A DNA stretch of 64,000 nucleotides from Halopelagius inordinatus (GTDB lineage Archaea > Halobacteriota > Halobacteria > Halobacteriales > Haloferacaceae). Position numbers and translations under genes: made by a program. The notes under the pieces were generated by a model, which saw only the letters and a program-made list of their open reading frames with translations, was not told where the DNA came from and ran no database searches. Positions within the stretch are counted from its first letter, which is position 1, and each line of letters opens with the position of its first letter. Positions 7,044 through 17,772 of the stretch are shown one piece after another. The stretch spans positions 434,001 through 498,000 of the forward strand of contig NZ_FOOQ01000001.1 in NCBI RefSeq assembly GCF_900113245.1. Direction: 5' to 3'.

Positions 7044-7118
7044 GGGCCCTTAGCTCAGCCTGGTTAGAGCGCTCGGCTCATAACCGAGTGGTCGATGGTT
7101 CGAATCCGTCAGGGCCCA
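7044..7118 (+). tRNA. tRNA with CAU anticodon (likely Ile2, possibly elongator Met)
   Basis: The acceptor is GGGCCCT/AGGGCCC with discriminator A. The anticodon stem and loop CTCGG-CTCATAA-CCGAG gives CAT. It lacks the GGG/CCC anticodon stem of initiator tRNA. The GGGCCCTTAGCTCAG 5' half resembles known tRNA-Ile2, whose C34 is modified (agmatidine in archaea) to read AUA. Elongator Met cannot be excluded from sequence alone. Its 3' half is the attachment site of the downstream island: the final 22 bp recur at 7200-7221, and 21 bp with one mismatch at 15369-15389. Confidence 0.9.
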
Positions 7119-7199
7119 TACGAGTGTCCGAGCGTCAGCGAGGACCGATTTTGTACCGCTGACGGTTCGCACCGAGGAGCGAACGAAGTGAGCGACTGT

Positions 7200-7221
7200 G
7201 GTTCGAATCCGTCAGGGCCCA
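7200..7221 (+). repeat. duplicate of tRNA(CAU) 3' end (att-like)
   Basis: GGTTCGAATCCGTCAGGGCC and the next two bases repeat the last 22 nt of the tRNA exactly, 82 bp downstream of it. The copy is preceded by the CGAACGAAGTGAGCG linker (7180-7194) that also occurs at the tRNA-Arg repeats. Confidence 0.85.
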
Positions 7222-7352
7222 TAGAAACGACGGAGGTTCGTCGAGAACCTCTATCGTCAATTCTGTGGCCTTCACTCGGAATTCGTGAGGAGACCCTCTG
7301 GAGCGTTCGGCACGTTCCTCTGTGCTCGTGGTCGCCGCAAGGTGACCAAAGA

Positions 7353-8201
7353 ATGTACGAGCTCAAACGAGACGACGTATTGGACGATTACAGGCGGTTT
7401 CTGAAAGTCGAGCGCGGACTGAGCGAGAAAACCATCCACCAGCACGCCACCATGCTGCAGGTGTTCCTCGACCGGTACGAGCAGATTCGTCCGGCACAGG
7501 AACTCGCCAAGGAGTTCCAAGAGCACCTGATGGACGAGGGGTACTCGAACAGCCACATCAACAACACGATGAAGGCGATCGAGTACTACTTCGACTCCCT
7601 GGGCCGAACTGACGAACTCCCCGCGTCCGAACGTCGAAGCCTCCCCCGCAAGCGAACGGAACCGAACCCGCTGAGCGAGGACGAAGTACGTGAAATTCTC
7701 GGCGCTGCGAAGACGTACCGAGACACGGCTATCCTCCGGGTACTGGTTTCCTCCGGAATCCGGAAGTCGGAACTCGCGAATCTCGACATCTCGGACGTAG
7801 ACCTCGAACGACGGCGGCTCACCATCCGGGAGGGCAAGGGGAACAAGGACCGAACGGCGATCGTTTCCTCGAAGTGCGCAGACGCGATCGAGACCTACCT
7901 CCTCCGGCGCGAAGACGTCGAATCAGACGCCCTATTCTTGTCCCGATACGGGAACCGGCTGACGCCGAACGGCGTGTATCAACTGGTCAAACGAACGGTG
8001 GCCAGTACCGACATCGAACGAAACGTAAAGGTCCACACCTTCCGGGCGACGTTCGCACAGCGACTCAAGGAGAACGGAGCCGACATCTACCGTATCAAGG
8101 AACTCCTCGGTCACGACGACATCCGCTCGACGATGATCTACCTGCGGATGGAGCCTGACGAGTTGGGACGCGAGCACGACAAGTACTACGTCGGCTACTA
8201 A
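7353..8201 (+). CDS. tyrosine recombinase / integrase
   Basis: This 282-residue site-specific recombinase is XerC/D-like in size. The N-terminal SAM-like core-binding domain covers about 1-90. In the catalytic domain I see the first Arg in SSGIRKSELANL, the Lys of the beta hairpin in REGKGNKDR, the HxxR box HTFRATFAQRL, LGHDD, and the nucleophile Tyr in STMIYLRM. The ATG at 7353 starts MYELKRDDVLDDYRRFL, a normal N-terminus; the longer in-frame extension crosses tRNA-derived DNA and is rejected. Its place next to the tRNA att site makes it the island integrase. Confidence 0.92.
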   Translation: MYELKRDDVLDDYRRFLKVERGLSEKTIHQHATMLQVFLDRYEQIRPAQELAKEFQEHLMDEGYSNSHINNTMKAIEYYFDSLGRTDELPASERRSLPRKRTEPNPLSEDEVREILGAAKTYRDTAILRVLVSSGIRKSELANLDISDVDLERRRLTIREGKGNKDRTAIVSSKCADAIETYLLRREDVESDALFLSRYGNRLTPNGVYQLVKRTVASTDIERNVKVHTFRATFAQRLKENGADIYRIKELLGHDDIRSTMIYLRMEPDELGREHDKYYVGY

Positions 8202-8440
8202 GTACTGTCCTTCTAGTCATTTTCTCTCGCGATTTTAACCCCACAGTACGGTATCCATACAATCCATCCCTTTCGCTCATCCCAGGCCCAAAAGGTGTCA
8301 AATCCTACTATTGATGTGAACTATTGAAGCTAATCTCTCAGGGAGCGTGTTATCTCTGTTTCCCAGGCGAATAACAGTCATATTACTGACAGATAGAAGA
8401 GAATATGTTAATTCATCTCCATTTTCAACAATAGAACGCC

Positions 8441-9298
8441 ATGGTAGACGACATGACATACACTGATATAATCAAGAGGTATACACATTACGTGAATAAC
8501 TTCAGTAATGAAGTAGGTACGTTTGGGGAAGAGCCAACTGCCGAGCGCTTACAGGAGAAAGGTAACTACTCTTTGATCGGTATCTCTACTCCTCTATCAA
8601 GGAAATGTCTCCTAGAAAACAATTCTGATAGTCCTGGCATTCGTGATCTCTCTACAGAGACTCTTTCGCTTTTAGCAGTTGCACTAACGCGTCTACTGAG
8701 AATACAGATAGCAGATGATCACATAGAATATTGGGATTATACTACTGAGAGAATATCTGAATGGGATAATTCGTCACGAATTCCCTCATTAGTTTTGAAT
8801 ATAAAATTGATAAACGACCTGAGAAGGATTAAGCAGACGGAGAATACCGAAAGGGATTCTGAAAGTTTAGAACGAGTAGTTCAATATGGGCCTACCGTAT
8901 CACTATATCTCGTGTATCCGACATTAGAGGGGTTAATCAAATACATCTGCCGAGAAGATATTGAGATGAATGGAGAAGTGAAGAAAGGAGGTAAGATCAG
9001 AAAATTAGGTCCAAAATCAGATCCAGAATATTATGAGGAAGAAAAGGTGAGTAGCATCGGGTCGTTACTATGGCATTTGGAAATGGAAGAAGGAGATGAT
9101 ATAGAAAGAACGGCATTAAAAGAGATGAGGAAGAAAATAGGTGAATTGTGGGATATAGATGAAGACTGTGTTTATGGATGGATTGGATCAAATCGAAATG
9201 AATCAGTACACGGTACAGAACGTCCCGGTACTGAATACAGTACAATGATGAACCTGATCTGTCTTGTTAGTTGGATTATTATCCAAAGGGAGACTTGA
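8441..9298 (+). CDS. AT-rich island gene with HEPN RX4H motif, unknown function
   Basis: I do not recognise the family. The 285-residue protein is mostly helical. It carries RNESVHG at residues 252-258, matching the RX4-6H signature of HEPN ribonuclease-fold domains, with Arg252 and His257 as candidate catalytic residues in the usual C-terminal position. A start at Met5 (MTYTD) is possible. Base composition is strikingly AT-rich with non-haloarchaeal codon use, next to an integrase, so recent transfer is likely. HEPN proteins often act as toxins or defence RNases, but no antitoxin or nucleotidyltransferase partner is visible beside it. Confidence 0.7.
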   Translation: MVDDMTYTDIIKRYTHYVNNFSNEVGTFGEEPTAERLQEKGNYSLIGISTPLSRKCLLENNSDSPGIRDLSTETLSLLAVALTRLLRIQIADDHIEYWDYTTERISEWDNSSRIPSLVLNIKLINDLRRIKQTENTERDSESLERVVQYGPTVSLYLVYPTLEGLIKYICREDIEMNGEVKKGGKIRKLGPKSDPEYYEEEKVSSIGSLLWHLEMEEGDDIERTALKEMRKKIGELWDIDEDCVYGWIGSNRNESVHGTERPGTEYSTMMNLICLVSWIIIQRET

Positions 9299-9813
9299 TT
9301 TCCTTTTGCTGATCGAACTTTTCGTTACCTGTCCGTTCAATTGAGTGTGTCTGATCCACCCCTTTGAGGTTCGGTGCGGCGTTGACGACCTTCGACCAGT
9401 TATCGCCTATCGGACCGTCAGTGGCGACCGCTGCTCCTGGACGATCAACCCGTATTGGTGAACCATCACGGCGAACTCGTCTACTTGTTAAGGCAGTTGT
9501 GCGGCACGGTGCCGTAGTCGTCGATCGTTCTCCTTGATAGTCACTGGCTAAGTAACATCATGAACGCCATGCACGAGCCCCCTCAGAAGTGATGCCGTAT
9601 TGATCAAAACTCCACTGTTTTGCGACCTGTCGATTTCCGCCGAGTACTCGTCGAAATCCGCCTTGAACACCACAAGGCATCGTACCGAATCCAGCAATTG
9701 ACACAACTGAGATTCTCGAAATAACCGTCGTAGGCGATCGTAAAAACACGAAGGGTGCCGCCGACGTCCGAGACGGAGCTACGTATTGAAAAGAGTAGTA
9801 GACGGGTAGTCGA
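9299..9813. other. non-coding or decayed stretch within the island
   Basis: No intact gene is supported in these 515 bp. Short protein-like pieces can be read on the minus strand, for example FAVMVHQYGLIVQEQ near 9450-9490 and QWSFDQYGITSEGARAW near 9570-9620, interrupted by stops and frame changes. This is consistent with one or more eroded genes that I cannot name. Confidence 0.4.
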
Positions 9814-12800
9814 TTAGGTGTCTACGACAGAACGCTGCTGTGCTGCGTAGAGGTGTCGAACTGCGCCGACGGTAAAGGCGAGTGCACCGAGGATCATCGG
9901 CGTGTCTCCGAGTGTTCGTGCCCACAGTAGTGTCTGGACGTGATCCTGTTCGTAGAACTCGAGGCTCCGAGCGACGGCATATCCATCCTGATAGGCGGTC
10001 TGTAGCTGCACGAATCCGATAGGGAGCAACGACGCGACGGACATGACGACGAGTCCAACGTTCGTCAGCCAGAACGTTCCGCGGAACCACGTCGGATCCC
10101 ACGCGGCTTCGGGCGTGACGACGCGCAGAATATACGTGCCGAGACCGAGCGCGAGTAGACCGAACGCGCCGAAAAGCGAGGTGTGAGCGTGTGCAACGGT
10201 CAGGTAGGTCCCGTGTTCGTAGTAGTTGATAAGCGGGAGGTTGATGAAGAAGCCGAGTACTCCACCGCCCACGAAGTTCCAAATGCTACTGCCGACGATG
10301 AACAAGAGCGGTATCGTGTAGGGGAACGCCTCGTCTTGAGCTTTCAGCGACCGATATTCGCCGAAGCTTCGATAGAGGACGAACACGAGCGGGACGAATT
10401 CGAGGGTCGAGAAGGTCGTTCCGAGCGGGACCCAGAAGTCGGGGAGACCAACCCACCAGTAGTGGTGAGAGACGCCGACGATTCCCGCCGCCATGATCGT
10501 GAACACCTCGAAGAAAATCGCTTTTTCTGCGTCAGCTCTCTCGAGGAGATCCATCGACACCAGTGCGACGGAAATCACGGCGGTAACGAAGAACTCGAAG
10601 ACGCCCTCGACCCACATGTGAACGACCCACCAGCGCCAAAACTCCGTGACCGCCATGTTCGTCTCGGGCGTGTAAAGCATGCTCGCGGCGAACATGAGCG
10701 CGATCGAGCCGCCAGCGTAGGTCATGAAGTGACCCAAGCCGGTCAGCGGTTCGTCCAGTTGGCGGACGCTACGGAGCACTAACCACGTCCAACCGGCGAA
10801 GGCGCCGAGCAGCCCGACCTTCCAGAGTCGGCCGACTTCGAGGTACTCGAGACCCTCAGAGCCGAGCAACCACCAGAGATCACCGTCCTCGGGCGAACCG
10901 AGTTTGCCGTGTGTTCCGAGCCAGACGCCCGTGAACGCGCCGACTGTCGCGAATACGAGCACGCCGAGTAGTGCAGTCGTACCTTCGGCCTGCCACGGCG
11001 GATCGCGATCGCTGAACAGTCCTGGCAGGAACAGCCCGCCCGCGAGCCACAGCGTCGTGATCCAGAGGATACCGAGGTTCACGTGCCAAGCACGACCGAG
11101 GGAGAACGGCACCAGCGAAACGATGTCGATTCCGAGTGCGTCCCCTATCCCGTAGAACCCGGTTCGTTCGACGTAGTAGTGGGCGAGCAGCGCACCGATC
11201 AGCGCTTGTGCGGCGAACAGCGCCCCTGCGACGGGGACGTACCACGCTGCAGCGTACTGGGTCGGTGTTATCGATACGTCATCGGGGGACGGGACGTCGA
11301 TAATCTCGGTCGTCGGTTCGGCGAAATCGAGCGAGTGGTACGCCCAGACGCCGGCGCCGCCGCCAGCGATGAGGAGGATGACGCTGATCGTGCTCCAGAC
11401 CAGTACCTGTCCGGTGGGTCGGTTCCCGGTTCCGGGCACGTACGGCCAGTCGTTCGTATAGGAGTGGTCCGAGCCGGGCCGGTTGGTGTGAGACATCCAC
11501 GCCGTCCAACACGCGAAATCAGCGATTCGTCTGGCGTGATCGGCCGATCTGACGAACTTCGACGGAATCCCTCGTTCGGGTGAGCCGCCGTAGTACCGGT
11601 CGACGTACTGGTCCCGAATACGGTGATGTGCATAGGCTTCGGCCGCTGAGTACTGGATAACGGGCCCCTCCGGAGCATCCGCGTCGAGTTCCCGTTCGAC
11701 GCGTTCTGCGATGACTGCCTGCTCGTCATCGTCGACTGCGTCGAACGAATCAGCACCTCGCTGACGAGCGTAATACTCACGCATGAACTCGGCTTTCAAC
11801 GCCAGCGCATCGGCGGTGAGGTCGACCCCGAAGTACGAGCCGTTACCGAGGATCGAGCCCAGGTTCATGAGCCCGTTTGCCTGAAACGCCTTCTTGCCGA
11901 GTTGCACTTGCTCGTCCGTGACGATCAGATCCCCGTCCGGTCCGCGAATCTCGTCGGGAATCGGTGGTGCGCGCTCGTGGGATACCCACGCTCCGAGGCC
12001 CATCGCGACGAGATTAGCGACGAAGAGCGCGACGAGCGCCAGTGATCCGGTCGACTGTGGCCGGAGCGCCGCGAGATCGACACCTCCGTCGCCGTCTCCT
12101 GTTTCCAGTACCAGATTTGAGAGGAGTTCGAACAAGACGCGCTCTGGTGTTGCGGTTCCGGTACCTCCGTTAGTCAGACTCCCCGCCAGGGCCGAGAGCG
12201 TACGGGCGAGTGCACCATCACCGACCACGTCGTCTGAGAGGAGCGCCGTTGCCGCAAGCGCCGTCGCAGCCGACGGTCGACCAGCCTTCCGGTCGGACAC
12301 TATCTCGGTCGCGTCGCTCGATCGGGTACCCGCGCTCTGTGAGCGCTCAGTTCCGGCCACGTCGCGCGACCGGTTATCGACTATCTGCGGTAGTTCCTGG
12401 GTCAGCGCTCGTTCGAGTTCGTGACCGACAGTCACGGCGTCCCGTTGGAGGGCATCTTCGAGAACGCGGTCGAGGGGTTGACCCGTCTCGATATTCAGTT
12501 CTGCACAGAGATGTGAGTACGCTTCCGTGAACCCGTGGTCGACTGTCTCCGACGCGTCTGACTCCGAGCACGCGTCCGACTCCGCCGATGGCCGTCTCGA
12601 ATCGTCGGCAACGAACTGCTCGAGTAGTTCGTCCGTACTCGCGGTAGTCTCTGAGGCCAACTGGTTTCGGAGCGCTGTCAGTGTCTCGTCGTCGAGACGG
12701 GCTGCATTCAGGTCGTACCGCCGCAGGAACGACTCGAACGAATCGTCGGTGTTTAGATTTAGGTCGGACTGTTCACGGAGTTCGTCGACGGTTCGGTCCA

Positions 12801-13071
12801 GAACTCGTTCACACAGTTCGTTGACGGCTCGCTCGACGAGTCGTTCGCTGATGCCAGTCTCAGTTTCGGCCTCAGATTGCGCTCGTAGTTCGTCTATACC
12901 CCGATCGATCGCGTCGGCGACTTGCTCACCAGCCGTACGACGGACTCGCGTCGAAAAGCCGTTGACCGTCTCTTTTCTTGCTTTGAGACGATCTGTCACG
13001 TAATCGGTCGGATCGTGTGTCTCTGTTCCGCCGGACGAATCGCCTGTTGACAGAACACTCGTTATATCCAT
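9814..13071 (-). CDS. norB: quinol-dependent NO reductase (qNOR) with a ~340-residue N-terminal extension
   Basis: The C-terminal ~745 residues form a complete single-subunit qNOR, reducing 2 NO to N2O with quinol electrons in the membrane. TM1 starts near residue 342. It is followed by the cytochrome-c-like periplasmic domain region (LGKKAFQANGLMNLGSILG), where no CxxCH is visible, as expected of qNOR. Ligand candidates are His663 (RAWHVN), His818 and Glu822 (VHMWVEGVFE), His869/870 (SHHYWWVG) and His961/963 (AHAHTS). The start MDITSVLSTG follows GGGAGAGATC. Before TM1 lie ~340 polar, mainly helical residues rich in DELREQ-like segments, which ordinary qNORs of ~750 residues lack. They have no motif I know. 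Confidence 0.92.
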   Translation of the reverse strand: MDITSVLSTGDSSGGTETHDPTDYVTDRLKARKETVNGFSTRVRRTAGEQVADAIDRGIDELRAQSEAETETGISERLVERAVNELCERVLDRTVDELREQSDLNLNTDDSFESFLRRYDLNAARLDDETLTALRNQLASETTASTDELLEQFVADDSRRPSAESDACSESDASETVDHGFTEAYSHLCAELNIETGQPLDRVLEDALQRDAVTVGHELERALTQELPQIVDNRSRDVAGTERSQSAGTRSSDATEIVSDRKAGRPSAATALAATALLSDDVVGDGALARTLSALAGSLTNGGTGTATPERVLFELLSNLVLETGDGDGGVDLAALRPQSTGSLALVALFVANLVAMGLGAWVSHERAPPIPDEIRGPDGDLIVTDEQVQLGKKAFQANGLMNLGSILGNGSYFGVDLTADALALKAEFMREYYARQRGADSFDAVDDDEQAVIAERVERELDADAPEGPVIQYSAAEAYAHHRIRDQYVDRYYGGSPERGIPSKFVRSADHARRIADFACWTAWMSHTNRPGSDHSYTNDWPYVPGTGNRPTGQVLVWSTISVILLIAGGGAGVWAYHSLDFAEPTTEIIDVPSPDDVSITPTQYAAAWYVPVAGALFAAQALIGALLAHYYVERTGFYGIGDALGIDIVSLVPFSLGRAWHVNLGILWITTLWLAGGLFLPGLFSDRDPPWQAEGTTALLGVLVFATVGAFTGVWLGTHGKLGSPEDGDLWWLLGSEGLEYLEVGRLWKVGLLGAFAGWTWLVLRSVRQLDEPLTGLGHFMTYAGGSIALMFAASMLYTPETNMAVTEFWRWWVVHMWVEGVFEFFVTAVISVALVSMDLLERADAEKAIFFEVFTIMAAGIVGVSHHYWWVGLPDFWVPLGTTFSTLEFVPLVFVLYRSFGEYRSLKAQDEAFPYTIPLLFIVGSSIWNFVGGGVLGFFINLPLINYYEHGTYLTVAHAHTSLFGAFGLLALGLGTYILRVVTPEAAWDPTWFRGTFWLTNVGLVVMSVASLLPIGFVQLQTAYQDGYAVARSLEFYEQDHVQTLLWARTLGDTPMILGALAFTVGAVRHLYAAQQRSVVDT

Positions 13072-13128
13072 GATCTCTCCCTGTGTCCTGGTAACTAGTC
13101 TCAAAACTGTCGGATAACGGTGTGCCCG

Positions 13129-13137
13129 ATATATGCA
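13129..13137 (-). promoter_or_regulatory. candidate TATA box for norB
   Basis: On the minus strand GCATATATC lies about 58-66 nt before the norB ATG, which predicts a leader of about 30-35 nt containing the GGGAGAG ribosome-binding site. No clear dyad operator is seen next to it. Confidence 0.45.
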
Positions 13138-13421
13138 AGTAAAGGCGGTCGATCGGGCAGTTACCGTCGATAGATCTGGCTTGGATGCTCACTATCGAGG
13201 AGACACGAGTCATCGAAGTCGGCGACGAGATCTGCTTGGAGGCTATTTATCGATGCAACTTTTGTACTGAACGGTTGTCGGTCTGCTGTACTGAGCGGTC
13301 GGGCCCAAAGGTGAGATACTCCTCGGGACCTCCATCGTCATCCGCACACGCCCTCCCACTAATGGGGCGTGAGCCATCAGAGACGGTGATACTGTCGATA
13401 GAAGACACCGGGGTGATCGTA
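13138..13421. other. island stretch without a supported gene
   Basis: Small open frames exist on both strands (for example 13247-13453 minus), but none has a recognisable domain or a convincing start. The region lies between norB and an integrase remnant and may be decayed sequence. Confidence 0.4.
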
Positions 13422-13474
13422 CGGATGGAACCTGACAGTTGGAACGCGAGCACGGCAAGTACTACGTGGGCTAC
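13422..13474 (+). pseudogene. remnant of a second integrase C-terminus
   Basis: These 53 bp match the 3' end of the intact integrase (8145-8198) at about 49 of 54 positions, with one deleted base that breaks the frame after RMEPD. The rest of that gene is gone. It marks an older or recombined copy of the same kind of element inside the island. Confidence 0.75.
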
Positions 13475-13538
13475 GGAGTCCCGCCGTTTCGGTCGGGTTT
13501 CTCGGGAATTTAGACTCCCCGCGCGCGGTTCTTGGAGG

Positions 13539-13853
13539 TCAATCTAACCGATGTCGCTCTCCTCGCCGCTCCCGTCGCACGATCCCGCCAGCGAACAGTC
13601 GGAGTTTGTCGACGGGGTCCGACTCCGTCTCGTACGTTTCGACTCGGAGGTCCCACCGCACCTTCGCCGATCGGATCATCGCGCTCGTGACGTCGTCTTC
13701 GTGAGCGAAGAGCAGCCGTTCGCCGTGCGTCTCCGAGAGCGCTTCGAGGATGCTTGCGGCCTCTTCTCCGACGCCGAAGTTGTGTCCGAGGAACGGTAGT
13801 ACGAACGCAGTCGCGTTGCTACGTCTCGTGTACTCGGTGCTCTGCGTGGCCCA
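13539..13853 (-). pseudogene. truncated DUF7509-like fragment
   Basis: A minus-strand frame open between stops, with no start codon, reads RSNATAFVLPFLGHNFGVGE, then HGERLLFAHEDDVTSAMIRS and a FAGGIVRRER tail. This resembles the C-terminal half of haloarchaeal DUF7509 proteins as I recall them. The N-terminal half is missing behind a stop, so the gene is probably dead. The family name is from memory and should be verified. Confidence 0.5.
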
Positions 13854-13991
13854 TCACGTGCCGCAGACGGTGGACGTCCGAGACAGTCCACGGAACGGTC
13901 GCCACTCGGTCGTTCTCACCGTACGAAATCGACTATCGACTACTGCACAACAGACTAGAGTTATCAGCATTAGTGAAAAACGTGGTGACAG

Positions 13992-14624
13992 ATGAACACC
14001 CAGATCACCTTCGTGCTCGACTCGTCGGGATCGATGAACTCGATCGCTGACGATACTAGAGGCGGTTTCAACGCGTTCCTCGACGATCAGCGCGGCGAGG
14101 CGGGCACGGCGACGGTCACGCTGTACGATTTCAATACGACCGTCGACCGGGTGTACGAGGGGTATCCCGTCACCGATGCCCCCGAACTCGACGACGAGAA
14201 CTACAAGCCGGGCGGACAGACGGCGTTGTACGACGCTATCGCCCGGGCCGTCGACGAGACTGCCAAGAACATCTCCGGGATCGACCCGGTCGAACGACCC
14301 GACAAGGTCATCATCGTGGTGCTGACCGACGGGAAGGAGAACGCCTCCGAGACGCCTCAGGAGGCCGTTCGCGGCCGCGTCGAACACCGCCAGGAGGCCG
14401 ACGATTGGGAGTTCTTGTTCATCGGCGCGAATCAGGACGCCGTGCTGACCGCCGAGAGAATGGGCATCGAACGGGAGAGGTCGCTGACCATGGCTCACGA
14501 CGGTGAAGGGACCAGAGACGCCTACCGGTCCACGTCCGAAACCATCAGCGAGGCCCGATCGAACGGTACTATGAGCGGATTCGACGAAGCGGACCGCCAG
14601 CGTCAGGAGCGACCCGGGAACTAA
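13992..14624 (+). CDS. stand-alone von Willebrand factor A domain protein
   Basis: This 210-residue protein is almost entirely one vWA domain with a complete metal-ion-dependent adhesion site: DSSGS (Asp10, Ser12, Ser14), Thr77 in GGQTALYD and Asp113 in LTDGKEN. It has no signal peptide or membrane segment, so it is cytoplasmic. vWA proteins commonly partner with MoxR-type AAA ATPases or act in phage- or tellurite-type stress systems, but no such partner lies nearby. GGTGAC just before the ATG serves as ribosome-binding site. It is the best-preserved gene in the right half of the island. Confidence 0.85.
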   Translation: MNTQITFVLDSSGSMNSIADDTRGGFNAFLDDQRGEAGTATVTLYDFNTTVDRVYEGYPVTDAPELDDENYKPGGQTALYDAIARAVDETAKNISGIDPVERPDKVIIVVLTDGKENASETPQEAVRGRVEHRQEADDWEFLFIGANQDAVLTAERMGIERERSLTMAHDGEGTRDAYRSTSETISEARSNGTMSGFDEADRQRQERPGN

Positions 14625-14723
14625 CGCCTACAGAGACCCCTTCAATCGCAGTTTTCCGTCTCGAAAGACAGATAAGAGAGTCGCAGGCTTCGATATCGGT
14701 AGTCTATCCTCGACTTCCTCTCT

Positions 14724-15206
14724 CTACGTTCCCCGTCGTCTCCAGGCCTGGACCACCTTCCAGAGGCTCCGGACACCGATTGCTGCGATGAACGAACCTA
14801 TCGCCGTGAAGGCTAATAGCTCCATTAAACCACCCAACGAGGGCCTCCCTCTCAACGTGGACGCTGTGAGGAGATTCCAGAGCCACACTCCGAATAGATA
14901 CGTCACGAAAACCCCGACCAACAGCAACACTACCCCCGAAACGACGTCCACGACCGGATCCGTACCGTCGGAATACCTCCCCACCGCGACGGTACCGACG
15001 ATTGCAAACACCAATCCGAACCCCGTCGCTGAGAGCGTCACATTCCGCAACGACTCGTCCGTCTGGCAGCGCTCCCGTACCACCTCTCCATCGACTCTCG
15101 TTTCCGTGCACGTCGTCGTGGGAACCATCGTGCTTCCTACGACTCCTGCGACGCCGACGAGGATTAGCGAGGTTGCAACTGCAGTTTTCACGGCCGAGGA
15201 CACCAT
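14724..15206 (-). CDS. small four-TM membrane protein, unknown function
   Basis: The 160-residue protein has predicted membrane segments near residues 7-27, 58-77, 87-112 and 126-146. A loop with two Cys (TTTC and ERC) between TM1 and TM2 is probably external and may form a disulfide. It ends in a short basic tail (WRRRGT). No family is recognised. It is the last gene before the right island boundary. Confidence 0.75.
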   Translation of the reverse strand: MVSSAVKTAVATSLILVGVAGVVGSTMVPTTTCTETRVDGEVVRERCQTDESLRNVTLSATGFGLVFAIVGTVAVGRYSDGTDPVVDVVSGVVLLLVGVFVTYLFGVWLWNLLTASTLRGRPSLGGLMELLAFTAIGSFIAAIGVRSLWKVVQAWRRRGT

Positions 15207-15298
15207 GTCCTACGATAGCACACTCTACGATCAAATAACCTCTCTCGGTACCCGTCGAGAAACCGAGGATGTCGCCGAACGTCCGCGCCGAGGATCGG

Positions 15299-15389
15299 TC
15301 TCACAACCGAGTGGTCGATGTGCGAACGAAGTGAGCGGGGAGTAGTCGGGGCGTCAGGTCCGACGTACGTTCGAATCCGTCAGGGCTCA
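15299..15389 (+). repeat. right-end tRNA(CAU) remnants (att-like)
   Basis: CTCACAACCGAGTGGTCGATG (15300-15320) copies the anticodon arm and variable part of the tRNA with one mismatch. After a 48-bp insert holding the CGAACGAAGTGAGCG linker (15323-15337), GTTCGAATCCGTCAGGGCTC (15369 on) copies the T arm and acceptor with one mismatch. Together they are a split, mutated 3' half of the tRNA at 7044-7118. Confidence 0.8.
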
Positions 15390-15447
15390 GACCGAGTGGG
15401 CGCCAGTTAGGCCGACCTACTTTGAGCCGTCGGGCGCTATATCCCCT

Positions 15448-16576: not shown

Positions 16577-17635
16577 TCACTCCAACTCGAACGGAGGCAT
16601 GTCGAGAAACGCCTTCTCGTACCCCTCGTGTCGGCCGACTTGCGGCGGCACGTCCACGGAGACGTTCACCTCGTCGTCCGGCGCTAATCCCGCCACCGAC
16701 GCGCCGTAGTGAAATCCGAGTTCGGCGTCGAGACTCGGCGCCAACCGACCGCTGTACGTCTCGCCGTCCCCTACGTCCGCCGACAGCGCCATGCCCGGTA
16801 TCGTGAGACCGCTGTGCGGCGTGCGCGCGGAGACGGCGAGGTACGGGTCGTCACCGAACCGGTCGGCTTCGACGAGGCTCCCGACGAACGCCGCGTCACC
16901 GCTCGCCCCGCGTCCGAGCGGCGTCCCCGGCAGGGGGTCCGGCGCGGTTCCGGTCGGTATCGCCTCCATCCGCATCGGTTCCAGCGCACCGCGCGTTCCC
17001 TGCTTTTCTTCGAGGAGCCTGTAGGGGATGTCGTTCAACTCGCGCTCTTCGAACTCGAACTCGATGCTTCCGGACGCGCCGTCGCCGAACTTCCCGTCGA
17101 GAGACCCGTACCGGGCGATATCGGTACCGCCGACGCTCACCCGAATCTCGTAGGTCCCGTCGCCGTCGAGGGGGAAGTTCGCGCCGTAGTGAAAGCCCAT
17201 GCGCTGAGAGAGCATCGGATAGATGACCTCTTCGGACACCAAAGAGCCCTCGCGGACGATTTCGAGCGACAGACCGGCGTTCGGAACGACCGTTCCAGTC
17301 GCGGGGTCCCACGGCGTCGCCATCAGGTGGACGGCGTCGCTCGCCTCTACCGGCGTCTGCGTCGTCACGAACTCGCCGCCCTCGTTCTCGACGACCCAAA
17401 AGCGGTGAGGGTACGAGTACATCACTCCGACTCGCACGTCGTCTACGTCCGTCGTCCCGACCATCTCCATCCCCTCGACGTGCGTCGGGACGTACACCGC
17501 GTCGGGGCGGTTCTCGACGAGCGGCGGTTCGTCGCTCTGTGTCGTCTCGAAGAGGCTCGCCGCGCCGCCCAGACAGCCCGAGAGAGATCCGAGGGCGGCG
17601 GCACCGAACCCGCCGAGAACGCGGCGTCGCTGCAT
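16577..17635 (-). CDS. Tat lipoprotein, P19/Tp34-like candidate metal-binding protein
   Basis: The ATG at 17635 starts MQRRRVLGGFGAAALG, then the lipobox LSGC, giving a membrane-anchored extracellular protein of 352 residues. Two related halves each carry a GFHYGANF.../GFHYGASV... strand followed by a PLDGDGTYEIRV-type beta segment. This resembles the P19/Tp34 iron-binding fold (DGxHYGxN...GxYKV) known from bacterial ferrous-iron uptake. VGVMYSYPHRFWVVENEGGEF is also conserved-looking. The iron role is inference from this resemblance. It lies downstream of a large membrane protein and nikR on the same strand. Confidence 0.75.
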   Translation of the reverse strand: MQRRRVLGGFGAAALGSLSGCLGGAASLFETTQSDEPPLVENRPDAVYVPTHVEGMEMVGTTDVDDVRVGVMYSYPHRFWVVENEGGEFVTTQTPVEASDAVHLMATPWDPATGTVVPNAGLSLEIVREGSLVSEEVIYPMLSQRMGFHYGANFPLDGDGTYEIRVSVGGTDIARYGSLDGKFGDGASGSIEFEFEERELNDIPYRLLEEKQGTRGALEPMRMEAIPTGTAPDPLPGTPLGRGASGDAAFVGSLVEADRFGDDPYLAVSARTPHSGLTIPGMALSADVGDGETYSGRLAPSLDAELGFHYGASVAGLAPDDEVNVSVDVPPQVGRHEGYEKAFLDMPPFELE

Positions 17636-17772
17636 ACTCCGACTCGGAGATGCGGGTGCATACGGGTTCTGGTGCGGCCGTCGAACGAGAGCCTCGGGCG
17701 GGAACGCGGCGACCGGTCGCCGCGGCCACCGCGGGGGTCCGACGCTCGAACGGCGGCGGCCGGAACGCCGCC

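Follow-up and report, generated by a model that had tools for sequence, protein, structure and literature searches.

A haloarchaeal clade of qNOR-type nitric oxide reductases carries an apparently undescribed helical N-terminal extension

The DNA analysed here (the window) is a stretch of 64,000 nucleotides from Halopelagius inordinatus (contig NZ_FOOQ01000001.1, positions 434,001 to 498,000), which contains a long qNOR (NorZ)-type gene within a mobile element (Table 1). The reading frame is uninterrupted, with zero stops over its 1085 codons, and encodes a qNOR module preceded by 342 additional residues, which we refer to as the extension. The best solved relative of residues 343-1076 is the Geobacillus qNOR 3ayf (E 4e-154), and inspection of the sequence located the haem b ligands (H631 and H963), the haem b3 ligand (H961) and the FeB ligands (H818, H869, H870 and E822), as well as E891. 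Together with the Pfam domains, this bears out a preliminary description of the DNA, which had called the catalytic module complete and had correctly set the extension at 12045-13071. The protein has the traits by which a qNOR (NorZ) is recognised, i.e., a COX1 fold with ligands for haem b and haem b3 and three His and one Glu for FeB, a cytochrome c-like domain without haem c fused between TM1 and TM2, and the residues of the 3ayf quinol site. The CxxCH haem c motif is absent from the window qNOR, and its residues H631, E635, F639 and D1056 align with H328, E332, F336 and D746 of 3ayf, which we take to be quinol-site positions. Judging from this residue conservation, the enzyme would draw electrons from the quinol pool and reduce NO to N2O, as do other qNORs. 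From TM1 on, the window protein resembles the qNORs of Geobacillus stearothermophilus (3ayf) and Neisseria in its haem b, haem b3 and FeB ligands and in a cytochrome c-like domain lacking haem c. However, the latter two start about 10-25 residues from TM1; the N terminus of the window protein does not lie directly before TM1, and its 342 additional residues are kept across a whole clade.

Table 1. Features of the long qNOR gene and of the mobile element around it (window positions)
Feature	Position	Strand	Details
tRNA-Met, integration site	7044..7118	plus	
tRNA-Met 3'-end repeat (att-like), first copy	7098..7121	plus	
att-like repeat, second copy	7201..7224	plus	96% identical
Tyrosine recombinase (integrase) of the element	7344..8201	plus	PF00589, E 2.6e-40
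Long qNOR (NorZ-type) gene	9814..13071	minus	1085 aa; ATG at 13071, stop at 9814
COX1-like catalytic domain	9904..11250	minus	residues 608-1056; Pfam COX1, ligands present
NorB cytochrome c-like domain without haem c motif	11440..11958	minus	residues 372-544; PF22085, E 5e-49
TM1 and start of canonical qNOR module	11959..12045	minus	residues 343-371; 3ayf alignment and hydropathy
N-terminal extension	12046..13071	minus	residues 1-342; all-helical (predicted), soluble
Conserved Ala/Leu-rich segment	12172..12279	minus	residues 265-300; not a TM helix
Second conserved extension block	12382..12534	minus	residues 180-230; LxRDAVxVGHALERxLxEELP
Most conserved extension block	12637..12759	minus	residues 105-145; FLRRYxLDxxRLDDxTLxxIR
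att-like repeat, third copy, far side of qNOR	15369..15392	plus	92% identical

The gene had been placed on a mobile island, and the comparison with another genome of the same genus agrees with this. In that genome, the slot between the tRNA-Met gene and a DUF7350 gene is filled with other genes, a predicted catalase-peroxidase (recognised by eye) among them, and holds no qNOR; an att-like stretch leads directly into sequence homologous to the window from 14716 onward. Therefore, about 7.2-14.7 kb of the window is inserted DNA, and no clean right-hand repeat was found at 14.7 kb. An integrase, direct repeats of the tRNA end and the absence of the insertion from the same site in a relative characterise an integrative element whose right end is approximate, and the tRNA-Met slot (7044-15392) is an integration hotspot. 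An AT-rich reading frame adjoining the integrase (8441-9298, plus strand, 285 aa, ~40% GC) has no Pfam match and is probably foreign cargo. Directly upstream of the qNOR gene, on the opposite strand and inside the inserted stretch, lies a VWA-domain frame (13992-14624, plus strand, 210 aa), and beside the element is the gene for a DUF7350/iron-transport-like lipoprotein (16580-17680, minus strand), the place of which is conserved in the same-genus genome.

We searched for the extension in 391 genomes sampled across the class, in 125 Natrialbaceae genomes and in the window's own genome. It is near-complete in about 26 genomes of the class-wide sample and in 23 of the Natrialbaceae, alongside a few decayed copies; outside this family, the carriers are Haladaptatus, Halalkalicoccus, Halococcaceae MAGs, Halogranum and Halegenticoccus. 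Across the 391 genomes, it always shares one frame with a qNOR, except in frameshifted or truncated cases, and the window's genome holds no second copy. Of the two forms in which the region had been envisaged in other haloarchaea, fused or as a free gene, the first was thus encountered, and no intact representative of the second was found in the 391 class-wide genomes, the 125 Natrialbaceae genomes or the window's own genome, all copies being fused or decayed. The long qNORs of Natrinema, Haloterrigena, Natronococcus, Haladaptatus, Halalkalicoccus, Halogranum and Halegenticoccus have the same fusion, start and conserved blocks as that of the window, and the extensions of other haloarchaea are 24-74% identical to it. 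In RefSeq, the long-qNOR orthologues inspected, including WP_015323333.1, bear the label 'cbb3-type cytochrome c oxidase subunit I'.

In a midpoint-rooted tree of the catalytic module alone, built without a bacterial outgroup, a single branch (SH-aLRT 100) splits the long qNORs (n = 34) from the short haloarchaeal ones (n = 63), and one change explains the distribution of the two forms. The extension is kept in every intact long-clade member of the tree; it is a constant part of the protein in one haloarchaeal qNOR clade, with at least 34 distinct sequences and a single origin on this tree. As had been proposed, the region matches no recognised family, but it is not a one-off. Short haloarchaeal qNORs (e.g., those of Haloferax and Haloarcula) are enzymes of the same type, ~52-57% identical to the window's in the module, but they lack the extension, form a separate clade and lie more often near genes of the cupredoxin family (NirK/halocyanin type). 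The two forms are separated by 48 positions, which show no clear clustering by eye. The window qNOR groups with G322 and Natrinema, both Natrialbaceae, rather than with its own family, which is what horizontal transfer would predict. Sister to the long clade are the qNORs L116 (G352) and L117 (G367), representing one other haloarchaeal family; they have long N-terminal regions with a RYxLxxxxLxxxT-like motif, so that the gain of the extension may slightly predate the long clade, and are otherwise too divergent there for confident alignment. The RYxL-type motif seems to recur several times in these two regions. An apparent reach of L028 to residue 160 was discarded as noise, the upstream part crossing a stop.

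Residues 1-342 have no Pfam or NCBIfam match above the curated cut-offs, and a PDB sequence search returned nothing convincing, in line with the earlier statement that no family is recognised; MreB-like_C and SMU1 came up in these searches with weak, inconsistent matches and were rejected. Over 34 sequences, M1, F115, Y119, L121, L126 and D211 are invariant and no Cys or His is conserved. The net charge is -35. The Ala/Leu-rich stretch noticed previously at 265-300 is real and conserved (A271 in >90%), but with a maximum 19-residue hydropathy of 1.14 it is not a membrane helix, and the extension has no TM segment. The DELREQ-like repeats of the preliminary description did not hold up. They come down to one weak pair (45-72 versus 81-108), equalled in score by 16 of 200 shuffles and absent from many relatives, and a profile-versus-profile comparison of the quarters of the extension gave no clear repeat (best probability 18%). 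The length differs by ~100 residues among long qNORs, residues 61-104 being absent in many of them.

AlphaFold2 predicts only helices for the window extension (21 sequences, mean pLDDT 59), matching its earlier portrayal as helix-rich, with long ones at 21-69 and 75-103. For the compact orthologue L084 (34 sequences), the mean pLDDT is 66, with values of 77-96 over residues 22-120, which correspond to the most conserved block and the helices before it; the block itself reaches 90-96. Comparison of these helical, low-confidence models with PDB folds gave a best Foldseek E of 1.8 and best VIA Z scores of 6.6 and 6.0. No PDB fold stands out, and the models, of modest confidence, give too little basis for declaring the fold new. 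The N terminus is cytoplasmic in known qNORs, and from the orientation of their TM1, the extension would be cytoplasmic too. In openly accessible papers (PMC8400030, PMC8301774), haloarchaeal NOR is treated as a single qNOR/NorZ class, and no mention of an N-terminal domain of this kind was found in openly accessible passages on haloarchaeal denitrification. Thus, the ~340 residues constitute an apparently undescribed helical domain.

Chance open frames are numerous in GC-rich genomes, and in RefSeq the Haladaptatus orthologue starts later, both of which would suit a protein beginning near TM1 behind a 5' leader or a fortuitous frame. Both the extension and its start Met are, however, common to 34 distinct long qNORs. 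In many relatives, an in-frame stop lies 1-5 codons upstream of this Met, which rules out a start further upstream, and the aligned relatives share no start codon in the stretch from the extension to TM1; the sole invariant internal candidate, M357, is inside TM1. Selection at the protein level acts over the whole extension: dN/dS is 0.45 (bootstrap CI 0.42-0.49) pooled over ten separate close pairs and 0.34 (0.24-0.46) between the window and its nearest relative, L089, with values of 0.34 for residues 105-145, 0.35 for residues 180-230 and 0.54-0.60 for the linkers; in one pair (L008/L010) it is near 1. The corresponding range for the catalytic part is 0.10-0.17. The extension is under purifying selection, evolving at about three times the rate of the enzyme, and the shared start, the lack of a conserved internal start and the dN/dS values together indicate that it is translated and selected as protein. 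RefSeq also annotates the N. occultus orthologue WP_015323333.1 as one full-length protein including the extension. A misread start is accordingly rejected as hardly credible, and the fusion is real, as first described. A few copies are damaged. In L113 (G327), the extension is frameshifted in its first half, and in L111 (G188), its first 168 residues are missing; in both, the enzyme frame stays open and the remaining sequence shares 92% identity with relatives. This speaks against a vital role of the extension: either its first half may be dispensable or the two genes are decaying. In L115 (G233), the first half is broken or missing and the whole gene has decayed.

The reading that we favour, at a probability of roughly one half, is that of a variant in qNOR domain architecture: a distinct haloarchaeal clade would have gained a soluble, all-helical domain once, in front of TM1, which would bind a different protein or self-associate in the cytoplasm. 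Binding would occur through the two helical blocks, tied to TM1 by the faster-evolving linkers, and would place or tune the enzyme for NO removal, serving cells without another NOR as well as cells that also have a short qNOR. The absence of a conserved partner gene, the faster evolution of the extension, the L008/L010 pair and the damaged first halves of L111 and L113 count against this reading. A narrower version, in which the extension only serves to form or stabilise dimers or higher-order oligomers of the qNOR as a coiled coil or helical bundle, without any other partner, strikes us as rather doubtful. qNORs do dimerise, the predicted helices are long, and the 17 long-qNOR loci have no conserved neighbour that could encode a partner; yet in known qNORs the dimer forms through TM helices, with no extension involved, and the long-helix part varies widely in length. 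Low pLDDT outside the two blocks, the dN/dS of up to 0.60 and the decayed or truncated first half in two genomes would fit a mostly disordered acidic tether or spacer that is tolerated rather than used. We consider this improbable given the invariant residues of the two blocks, their clade-wide dN/dS of ~0.34 and the retention of the extension throughout the intact long clade. A separate domain, sensory or catalytic, with a bound cofactor or ligand and control over the reductase would account for separate conserved blocks and a single fusion origin, but the absence of invariant Cys and His makes a haem, Fe-S or metal sensor unlikely, there is no known motif, and Pfam, NCBIfam and PDB yielded no ligand-binding family; its probability is very low.

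We infer the protein interaction, like the regulatory or docking function suggested earlier, and likewise a role in NO detoxification, on which the following genomic context bears. The only neighbour shared among long-qNOR loci is an iron-sulphur repair gene of the ric/YtfE type, located directly upstream of the qNOR at three Natronococcus-type loci as well as in N. occultus; it suggests a link with NO stress. Cupredoxin-family genes occur within 6 kb at 20 of 62 short-qNOR loci versus 1 of 17 long-qNOR loci. Eleven of the 23 Natrialbaceae carriers have no intact qNOR other than the long form, and five of the 23 have no NirK match at all; therefore, the long qNOR can occur by itself and has no fixed link to denitrification. 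Most genomes with a long qNOR also carry NirK, and an ordinary role in denitrification is thus equally possible. More tentatively, the extension may represent a new family of independently folding domains and couple NO reduction at the membrane to a cytoplasmic partner or regulator, which would make the long qNORs a second functional class in archaea beside the denitrification-linked short form; we regard this as possible rather than probable.

Haloarchaea thus have two separate qNOR clades, sometimes both in one genome, one of them with an extra domain and on mobile DNA. Telling the two apart would allow sharper predictions of how NO and N2O turn over in salt lakes, and with the long qNOR the gain of a soluble module by a haem-copper enzyme becomes open to testing. 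The genome of the window itself has both forms: its short qNOR (764 aa, L150:263-2557) is on contig C5, as is its NirK. This short qNOR gene adjoins a halocyanin-like gene (L150 and L155 on G000:C5).
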